Part shown: one piece after another, positions 10,033 through 45,693 of the stretch
How positions within the stretch are numbered: position 1 is the stretch's first letter
How the letters are laid out: the number at the start of each line of letters is the position of its first letter
Assembly (NCBI GenBank): GCA_020062745.1
Contig: JAGUVT010000021.1
Coordinates: 1-54,888 of the forward strand
DNA length: 54,888 bases
From: Deltaproteobacteria bacterium
GTDB taxonomy: Bacteria; Bacillota; Desulfotomaculia; Desulfotomaculales; JAGUVT01
Direction of reading: 5' to 3'
The notes under the pieces: model-generated
What the model was told of the DNA's origin: nothing
Database searches by the model: none
The model's input: only the letters and a program-made list of their open reading frames with translations
Translations under genes and position numbers: made by a program

Positions 10033-10806
10033 ATGGCAGCCAGGACTTTGAAGGTAATCCTGTTGAGCCATACTCCGGTACCTCAGGAAGTGGTAGCCAT
10101 GGGGGCCAGGCTTTGCTATTCGTCATCAGACATCGGAGAGTTGCAGGAGGGCATTACCGGACGAGAGCAGGCTTTTTTTCTGGAAAAGCTGCTTGGTTCC
10201 GGCCATCTTTCGCCAATCGAACATGCCTCCTTTACTTTCGGCATCGAAGGAGTTTCGCGAAGTCTTATGGCCCAGATTACCCGCCATCGCCTGGCAAGCT
10301 TCAGCGTAAAGTCGCAGCGTTATGTTTCGGCGGCCAGCCCCGGGAGTGAAGACCGGGTTTTTGACTACATTATTCCCCCTCGCATTGAAGCTCTGGGCCC
10401 GCAGTATGTGCAGGAGTTTGCCAGGCAGATGAAGCAGATTCAGGAGTGGTACGATTTTTGGCATGCCAAGTTAACTGCGGCTGGCGAGACGGCCAGTGAA
10501 GATGCCCGTTTTGTTCTACCTAACGCTACCGAAACAAAATTGTTGGTTACCATGAATGCACGGGAGTTGCGCCATTTTTTCTCTCTACGCTGTTGCAACC
10601 GGGCCCAGTGGGAAATTCGGGCCCTGGCGATCACAATGTTGAAACTGGTAAAGGCAATAGCGCCAGTTCTTTTTAAAGAGGCCGGGCCGCTATGTCTCAG
10701 AGGGAATTGCCCCGAGGGGAGGATGTCCTGCGGCAAAAGCATTGAGGTGCGGCAGTTTTTCCAAAATTTATCCGTAGGGGTGCAAGGAAATAATAAAGGA
10801 CATTGA
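10033..10806 (+). CDS. thyX: flavin-dependent thymidylate synthase ThyX
   Basis: ThyX makes dTMP from dUMP using FAD, NAD(P)H and methylene-tetrahydrofolate. The 257-residue protein shows the ThyX signature RHRLASFSVKSQRY at residues 84-97, and the late RELRHFFSLRCCNRAQWEIR segment that carries the dUMP-activating region. The last ~20 residues after SCGKS are not conserved as far as I know. The reading frame for rlmB starts within this tail. Confidence 0.95.
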   Translation: MAARTLKVILLSHTPVPQEVVAMGARLCYSSSDIGELQEGITGREQAFFLEKLLGSGHLSPIEHASFTFGIEGVSRSLMAQITRHRLASFSVKSQRYVSAASPGSEDRVFDYIIPPRIEALGPQYVQEFARQMKQIQEWYDFWHAKLTAAGETASEDARFVLPNATETKLLVTMNARELRHFFSLRCCNRAQWEIRALAITMLKLVKAIAPVLFKEAGPLCLRGNCPEGRMSCGKSIEVRQFFQNLSVGVQGNNKGH

Positions 10807-13089: not shown

Positions 13090-13165
<76 letters not shown>

Positions 13166-15856: not shown

Positions 15857-15874
15857 TTTAGAGAAGAAACAAAA

Positions 15875-16010
15875 AGTTTTGTCTAACGCTGTAGACTGCT
15901 GGTGCTTTGCTTAAAGGTTTTTACCTGCCAGCCGAGGCTTTTTTAAAACCTGCTACTTTAGTAACTTGCAGGGGTCTTGTATTTGTCTACAAGACCTCTT
16001 TAATTTTAGC
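15875..16010 (+). ncRNA. L10 leader (ribosomal protein autoregulatory element) with attenuator
   Basis: Between rplA and rplJ lies the L10-binding leader layout: a CTGCTGGTGC segment, then ACCTGCCAGCCGAGGC (the CTGCC-GAGG motif typical of these leaders), then an intrinsic terminator with stem GGTCTTGTA (15973-15981)/TACAAGACC (15988-15996) followed by a T-rich run. GTAGAC (15891-15896) can also pair with GTCTAC (15985-15990) in the terminator, offering an antiterminator. L10(L12)4 binding would then control read-through into rplJL. Confidence 0.75.
15971..16010 (+). terminator. attenuator in the rplJL leader
   Basis: A 9-bp stem GGTCTTGTA/TACAAGACC with a 6-nt loop and CTCTTTAATTTT after it. 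It forms the 3' part of the L10 leader. Confidence 0.8.
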
Positions 16011-16112
16011 AATAAGCTATCAGCTCTCAGCTATAACAAGGCAGAGAACACGTATGAATTCTTTCTTTATGCTGACGGCTAGAGGCTGAAAGCTGGTTGC
16101 TGACGGCTAAAT
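16010..16112. repeat. heptad-repeat element between L10 attenuator and rplJ
   Basis: The left arm reads AGCTATCAGCTCTCAGCTAT. The right arm contains GCTGACGGCTAGAGGCTGAAAGC and GCTGACGGCTAA, roughly inverted and with 7-nt phasing. The inner segment 16055-16081 matches 36741-36767 at 24 of 27 positions. It adds about 100 nt between the attenuator and the rplJ SD. Confidence 0.8.
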
Positions 16113-34113: not shown

Positions 34114-34482
34114 GTGATACAAGTCCAATCTTTGCTGCAAGTTGCAGATAACACGGGGGCACGTAAGTTGATGTGTATCAGGGTGTTAGGGGGGAGCCTG
34201 CGCCGCTATGCCAGCCTGGGAGATATTGTTGTATGTTCGGTAAAGGAAGCTACGCCGGGTGGTGCGGTGAAAAAAGGTGAAGTGGTGAAAGCGGTAATAG
34301 TGCGTACTAAAAAGGAAGTGGGCCGCCCTGACGGTTCCCGGATCAAGTTCGACGAAAATGCGGCTGTTTTAATTAAAGATGATAAAAGCCCGCGAGGTAC
34401 CCGTATTTTTGGACCGGTCGCCCGTGAACTACGAGATTATGACTTTATGAAAATTATTTCTTTAGCGCCGGAAGTGCTTTAA
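34114..34482 (+). CDS. rplN: 50S ribosomal protein L14
   Basis: L14 forms bridge B8 and is the RsfS silencing site. The 122-residue product starts [28 protein letters not shown] and has [26 protein letters not shown] and [15 protein letters not shown]. The start is GTG 34114 after AAGGGGGAT. Confidence 0.98.
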
Positions 34483-34495
34483 GGGGTGAATTATT

Positions 34496-34813
34496 ATTAA
34501 CAAAGTACATGTTCGCAAGGGTGATACGGTTCTTGTAGTTACCGGTAAGAATGCCGGCAAAAAAAGTAAAGTGCTGTCGGTAGATCCAAAAAGCAAGCGG
34601 ATAATAGTGGAAGGTGTTAACGTAGTTAAACGTCATAACAGGCCCACCCGGGCATTGCCGCAGGGAGGCATTGTGGAAAAAGAAGCGCCTATTCACATTT
34701 CTAACGCGATGCTTTTTTGTGGTAAATGTGATAATCCCACCCGTGTAGGCAAGAAGATTTTGGATGATGGCGAAAAGGTTCGTATATGCAAGAAATGTGG
34801 CGAGACTATTTAA
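34496..34813 (+). CDS. rplX: 50S ribosomal protein L24 (apparent ATT start)
   Basis: L24 initiates 50S assembly. The frame encodes a complete L24 beginning [25 protein letters not shown], but the first in-frame ATG/GTG/TTG is GTG 34571, which would delete this KOW core. The frame is closed upstream by TGA 34487-34489. Directly after a strong SD (TAAGGGGTGA) come three ATT codons at 34490, 34493 and 34496. ATT 34496 has the best spacing (9 nt) and gives 105 residues. The C-terminus has a CGKC...CKKC zinc ribbon. AUU starts are known from infC, so this may be a regulated or weak start; a sequence error is the main alternative. Confidence 0.88.
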
Positions 34814-45280: not shown

Positions 45281-45300
45281 AAGGTAAGGAGGAGTTTGCG

Positions 45301-45693
45301 ATAGCTTATACGCAATTTTATGGCACCGGCCGGCGGAAAAATGCTGTTGCCCGTGTTTTTCTAGTACCGGGTGAAGGGCGGGTAATGGTAAACAGCCGGC
45401 CGGTAGATGAATATTTTGGCCGCCGTACTCTGGAGATGATTGTACGGCAGCCGCTAGAGTTAACTGGTCTAACCGGACGTTTTGATATCCTGGCTAAAGT
45501 GATGGGCGGCGGTGTAACCGGTCAGGCCGGGGCAATCAAAATGGGTATTGCCCGTGCTCTGGTGCAAAGCGATTCCAATCTGCGGTCTACCTTGAAGCGG
45601 GCCGGTTTTTTGACCCGGGATCCACGCATGAAAGAACGCCGGAAGTACGGTCTCAAAAAAGCCCGCCGGGCTCCCCAGTTTTCCAAGCGCTAG
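45301..45693 (+). CDS. rpsI: 30S ribosomal protein S9 (apparent ATA start)
   Basis: S9's C-terminal tail reaches P-site tRNA. The product contains [24 protein letters not shown] and ends [17 protein letters not shown]. The family N-terminus (M-A-x-x-Q-x-YGTGRRK) falls at codon ATA 45301, exactly 8 nt after the strong SD AAGGAGGAG. No ATG/GTG/TTG occurs in frame between the rplM stop and this point. The only canonical upstream start (ATG 45223) lies inside rplM and would put the SD within the gene. ATA gives 130 residues. A sequencing error ATG to ATA is the alternative. Its stop shares CTAG with the convergent fapA. Confidence 0.9.

Follow-up and report, generated by a model that had tools for sequence, protein, structure and literature searches.

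An AUU codon as the probable translation start of the ribosomal protein gene rplX in a bacterium of the Desulfotomaculales

We are highly confident that the gene of ribosomal protein L24 (rplX) in this bacterium is translated from the AUU codon at position 34496, employing an ordinary initiator tRNA and thus formylmethionine, aided by a Shine-Dalgarno (SD) sequence and probably also by the ribosomes that translate rplN. AUU is a codon that cells normally reject as a start. Initiation at AUU is in itself already known, and what is unusual here is that it concerns a ribosomal protein gene. Within our sample of 109 rplX loci, the state is unique.

Positions refer, unless another locus is named, to the window, the whole stretch of DNA that was analysed, which spans 54,888 nucleotides and constitutes contig C26 of an assembly of 2.69 Mb in 148 contigs with a completeness of 99.65%. 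The left end of the contig (1-60) is occupied by a short tandem repeat (cagctat...), perhaps the cause of the assembly break at this point.

Results

A preliminary description of the window had proposed that the rplX frame contains a whole L24, and that no ATG, GTG or TTG precedes the conserved core. Both parts of the proposal hold. The frame matches the family TIGR01079 over the full length of the profile (1-104 of 104) with 129.8 bits against a cut-off of 53.7, and represents the single L24 match in the genome. It is also matched by 78 distinct sequences of solved structures, and nearly all of the 60 listed are named L24 or uL24. Upstream, the frame is closed by the in-frame stop TGA 34487-34489. 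Reading the sequence from this stop, no in-frame ATG, GTG or TTG is encountered until GTG 34571, which is codon 26 counting from ATT 34496 and sits inside the conserved domain. The N-terminal stretch ahead of this GTG aligns with solved L24 chains, and a comparison of codons 2-25 with 30 relatives (34 loci were tried, and four were left out as unfit in motif, length or frame) yielded 141, 71 and 457 substitutions at codon positions 1, 2 and 3, respectively. Such a bias of the changes for the third position is that of protein-coding sequence, here ahead of GTG 34571.

The start region itself is compact (Table 1). GGGGTGA lies directly 3' of the TAA that terminates the preceding gene, presumably rplN as judged from the gene order of the ribosomal operon, and joins the SD core and the in-frame TGA in one stretch. 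Then follow three ATT codons, at 34490, 34493 and 34496, as initially described, and the third continues with AAC AAA GTA CAT GTT CGC AAG GGT GAT. A frame of four codons, GTG AAT TAT TAT TAA (34486-34500), overlaps the rplX start, probably by chance.

Table 1. Positions of the features discussed, all in window coordinates (energies refer to SD pairing).
Feature	Position	Strand	Remarks
rplN (L14), upstream gene	34114..34482	+	stop TAA 34480-34482 ends 13 nt before ATT 34496; homologue in relative G007
Shine-Dalgarno TAAGGGGTGA	34480..34489	+	holds the rplN stop and the in-frame TGA; -13.0 kcal/mol for ATT 34496
First and second ATT, less likely starts	34490..34495	+	-4.7 and -10.4 kcal/mol; 0 and 3 nt after GGTGA
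Third ATT, proposed rplX start	34496..34498	+	aligns with ATG/GTG/TTG of relatives; 6 nt after GGTGA
rplX CDS	34496..34813	+	105 residues from ATT 34496, plus stop
rpsI (S9) start region, SD AAGGAGGAG, then ATA 45301	45281..45303	+	ATA 8 nt after GGAGG
rpsI CDS from ATA	45301..45693	+	S9, NF001099, 193 bits, cut-off 112
rlmB candidate ATA starts 10790 and 10793	10790..10795	+	overlap the end of the upstream frame 10033-10806; energies -8.9 and -8.6
tRNA-Met, anticodon CAT	13090..13165	+	GGG/CCC anticodon stem; looks normal

To assess the three ATT codons, SD duplex energies were set against those of 722 genes of this genome that have a clear standard start. The usual sequence was assumed for the anti-SD tail, because the assembly does not contain the 3' end of the 16S rRNA (its matches run up to model position 902, with 63 bases of contig left after that). 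Compared with a reference median of -10.0 kcal/mol, pairing strengthens from the first ATT to the third, whose strength is equalled or surpassed by 11.9% of the reference starts, congruent with the strong SD that had been claimed. The duplex is formed by GGGGUGA rather than by the full GGAGGUGA, and comprises 7 bp including one G-U, as counted by hand. The spacing of the last ATT had also been regarded as ideal, and it does fall within the peak of this genome: GGTGA precedes 85 of the reference starts, and 66 of these are located 4-7 nt after it (19, 22, 14 and 11 at 4, 5, 6 and 7 nt, respectively). Moreover, the third ATT lines up with the starts of relatives, which are of the form M-x-K-V-H-V.

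Use of the second ATT (34493) as the start, alone or alongside the third, would generate an L24 that is one residue longer, and we regard this as quite unlikely. The codon is placed 6 nt after GGGG and its energy is near the reference median, but its distance of 3 nt from GGTGA is seen at one of the 85 reference starts only, and the relatives' starts align with the third ATT instead. As for the leader, the start regions of rplX, rpsI and rlmB are not predicted to fold more stably than shuffled sequences (z of 0.50, 1.14 and 0.57, respectively), and hence nothing points to a structured regulator. Elsewhere in the window, at 15871-16011, an L10 leader of Rfam was detected (51.2 bits, cut-off 44), an ordinary ribosomal protein leader.

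We then turned to rplX in other genomes. In total 110 loci were gathered from two source sets that may share organisms, and 109 were examined, as one ran off its contig. The first set covers the order (60 genomes including this one, 56 of which matched L24, with the best 30 of the 56 kept, this one included), while the second is a named collection from which 80 of 561 confirmed L24 loci were kept, the nearest, with 81% identity, coming from a metagenome genome of the Desulfotomaculaceae. The locus studied here is the only one in which no standard codon is found on the way from the upstream stop to the core; all 108 others have one, the availability of such a codon in a relative not being proof of its use as start. 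ATT 34496 is found at the start position of the relatives, but the ATT codon itself is not conserved. A pattern search across 398 genomes of the phylum recovered ATH at the aligned place in four, this one included, and in each of the other three a standard codon (TTG, ATG or GTG) precedes it by one or two codons. The same pattern with ATG, GTG or TTG was present in 34 of the 398, with the rest being outside the strict core pattern and thus uninformative. No genome of the same family was present among 113 genomes of the order that were searched, which leaves no close relative in which the codon could be confirmed, and no independent copy of the rplX start was found in viral contigs.

These observations raise the matter of a sequencing or assembly error, with the true rplX codon being standard and ATT representing a mistake of the consensus. 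The division of the genome into 148 contigs, the lack of a same-family genome among the relatives searched and the standard codon at every other rplX locus examined would all be compatible with such an error, yet we consider it very improbable. By tblastn, 63 genes of the relative G007 were placed in the window, 54 of these with a single alignment covering >90%, and no second-frame alignment of >45% identity suggests a frameshift. Furthermore, no stop is present within a gene body across 13,972 aligned codons, which limits the substitution error to less than about 0.0019 per base (95%); the four stop signs in the alignments are located before a start or past the gene end, in three genes. At that bound, third-base start errors among the 63 genes would be expected with P = 0.007 for at least two and P = 0.0003 for at least three, and rpsI and rlmB show the same start state as rplX. 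The observation of the rplX start is right, and an artefact is unlikely, as judged from these comparisons. Also very improbable is that L24 is made by another route, either in truncated form from GTG 34571 or from GTG 34486 with ribosomes shifting by +1 into the frame of L24. While both GTG codons are present, the former would remove the conserved N-terminal stretch and exhibits weak SD pairing (-1.7), and the latter has, by eye, neither an SD at usable spacing nor a known slippery signal. Initiation at the third ATT, as first suggested, is on the other hand well supported by homology, the spacing and strength of the SD, the lack of alternatives and the low bound on sequence error.

Similar cases had been announced for rpsI and rlmB, and both were recovered. 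For rpsI, ATA 45301 follows a strong SD and is located exactly where all 29 relatives examined (the best-scoring 29 of 56 matched) have ATG, GTG or TTG. Within rplM, 26 codons upstream, the rpsI frame also contains an ATG (45223) whose SD pairing is weak (-4.3). This genome is the only one with the ATH pattern at the rpsI start among 113 of the order, the latter number referring to genomes searched rather than to genomes that fit the remaining pattern. The identity of RlmB is given by TIGR00186 (222.9 bits, cut-off 160.15), and no standard codon is found from TAG 10775 to GTG 10838. ATA 10790 or 10793, with a medium SD, are the best placed candidates for the start.

The infC gene, outside the window (locus L111 around 1493, contig C104), has an ATA start with an SD energy of -16.9. 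In an alignment of 31 infC genes, made up of 30 loci of 56 relatives matched and that of this genome, the start codon is ATT in 27, ATC in three and ATA in one, namely here; in a few of the relatives' genes, an in-frame GTG falls within the SD. The arrangement GGTGA, 6 nt, ATT recurs at several infC genes of the order. The ATT and ATC codons of the 30 relatives hence serve as a positive control for the reading of such starts from sequence.

Additional apparent cases are folK (L264 5837-6340, minus strand) with ATT and rsmE (L277 1371-2126, plus strand) with CTG, each without a standard codon upstream in frame. Two others, cobD (L171, ATA) and moaA (L115, CTG), were left aside, since an in-frame GTG 3 to 6 codons upstream makes them ambiguous. 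In G007, fumarate hydratase (L148 3144-4025, plus strand) displays an apparent ATT start after GGGGGGA, and such starts therefore seem to be present in relatives too. We also counted ATA, ATT, ATC and CTG at start-like places that lack a standard start, in scans that are noisy, with many wrong positions as judged by eye. In this genome (871 genes, about 0.97 Mb), these codons account for 26 of 3,102 available codons versus 145 of 28,250 for other codons, and in G007 (365 genes) the numbers are 12 of 1,317 versus 78 of 12,252. A simpler filter for non-standard starts retrieved 11 genes from each genome, out of 452 here and 365 in G007. The excess is small in this genome and in G007 and of similar size, and the former therefore does not clearly stand out.

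The initiation machinery was inspected as well. The anticodon stem of the tRNA-Met (Table 1) carries the GGG/CCC pairs that characterize initiator tRNAs. The aligned core of IF3 looks normal, with one difference from 30 relatives at columns conserved to at least 90%. As both components have a normal appearance, we read the rplX start as ordinary fMet initiation at AUU. A genome-wide change of start rules, considered separately, was rejected, since these two components look normal and the excess of ATA, ATT, ATC and CTG is small, and no such change is claimed.

Discussion

How would a ribosome start at this codon? In the mechanism that we propose, the weak pairing between AUU and the anticodon would be offset by pairing of the SD, GGGGUGA, at good spacing, and ribosomes ending rplN 13 nt upstream would probably assist the initiation of rplX. 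Initiation at AUU 34496 should nevertheless be weaker than at AUG, and what counts against the proposal is that a several-fold loss of initiation is not obviously tolerable for a ribosomal protein that is needed in equal amounts. The AUU of rplX is shared with pcnB of E. coli, where it limits expression, although the product of the latter is poly(A) polymerase, unlike the ribosomal protein encoded by rplX.

Non-standard starts are known for infC, with ATT in E. coli and ATC in Streptomyces (PMC5472188), ATT in B. subtilis (PMC6097659) and AUA in S. aureus (PMC13009471). Like infC, rplX is a translation-machinery gene in which AUH follows a strong and close SD and no standard start is used. The two differ in that AUH is present in every one of the 31 infC genes, whereas AUU in rplX was seen in this genome only, and in that infC of E. 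coli has a documented autocontrol (PMC5472188). AUH starts outside infC, as in rplX, have been described for ccpN (AUA), cvfC1 (AUU) and citZ (AUA) of S. aureus, and extended SD sequences are predicted for infC, cvfC1 and ccpN of this species (PMC13009471). The same work reports that AUU and AUA starts with extended SD sequences reach about 10% of AUG in poor medium, and that AUA of ccpN attains up to 30% of the AUG version in rich medium (PMC13009471). However, none of ccpN, cvfC1 and citZ is a ribosomal protein gene, and the start codons of ccpN and cvfC1 are conserved (PMC13009471), in contrast to ATT of rplX. In Streptomyces sigR, an extensive SD, AGGAGGTG, similarly accompanies a non-canonical start, but the codon is GTC, the gene encodes a sigma factor and the effect of IF3 was measured there (PMC5472188).

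Aggregated, rplX shares with starts of the infC, pcnB and ccpN kind the lack of a standard codon, the homologous position and a strong SD at usable spacing. Set against IF3-controlled starts such as infC and sigR, the normal IF3 (core) and initiator tRNA are in place, but conservation of the non-standard codon is not. Switches to AUU are moreover very rare in annotated genome triplets, with one for 61,358 AUG and one for 5,080 GUG starts (PMC5622118). In the titles and opening abstract lines listed by searches of open-licence literature, we found no report of a bacterial ribosomal protein gene, rplX or other, starting at AUU.

Non-canonical starts are repressed by IF3 in E. coli and Streptomyces (PMC5472188), and extra IF3 in E. 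coli is reported to lower non-canonical initiation and re-initiation (PMC2268962). By analogy with the starts of S. aureus, Streptomyces and E. coli, the rplX start is also expected to be sensitive to IF3, which, with IF3 normal in its aligned core, we find a reasonable inference, and rpsI and rlmB, being similar in appearance, may thus be sensitive as well. It is another matter whether this would be a regulatory device. That the rplX ATT is not conserved argues against an old device, with an evolved IF3 circuit as no more than a possibility, and makes drift the simpler cause. Equally, a recent substitution that is tolerated through a strong context is a simpler view than a selected rate that is low or tuned by IF3.

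We consequently find it likely that the AUU start is real and has no regulatory role, being recent, nearly neutral or slightly harmful, and tolerated through the strong SD, a reading that competes with regulation and not with AUU initiation as such. In addition to the missing conservation, it is in line with the candidate ATT and CTG starts of unrelated genes (folK and rsmE, and fumarate hydratase of G007) and with the small excess of ATA, ATT, ATC and CTG at start-like places, alike in this genome and G007. Opposed to it, rplX and rpsI share the state with infC and the gene of an rRNA methyltransferase within one genome, which could exceed drift, but this set is biased since the window is rich in ribosomal genes. 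A regulatory counterpart, where start codons of infC, rplX, rpsI, rlmB and perhaps rsmE (CUG) make some of the production of ribosomes in this lineage depend on IF3, appears unlikely to us. If it were true, initiation at these genes would rise when the supply of IF3 is low compared with that of 30S subunits, and an additional level of control, that of the start codon, would be present on ribosomal operons.

The AUU start of rplX would also have consequences beyond regulation. Gene callers mostly accept ATG, GTG and TTG, and this L24 is therefore likely to be called in truncated form, from GTG 34571, or to be missed. The gene furthermore offers a simple test case, as one base separates two clear predictions. 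If AUU does start the gene of an essential, stoichiometric ribosomal protein, then the rejection of AUU by IF3 would be less absolute than assumed when a strong SD is present, and IF3 could tune the output of a ribosomal protein.
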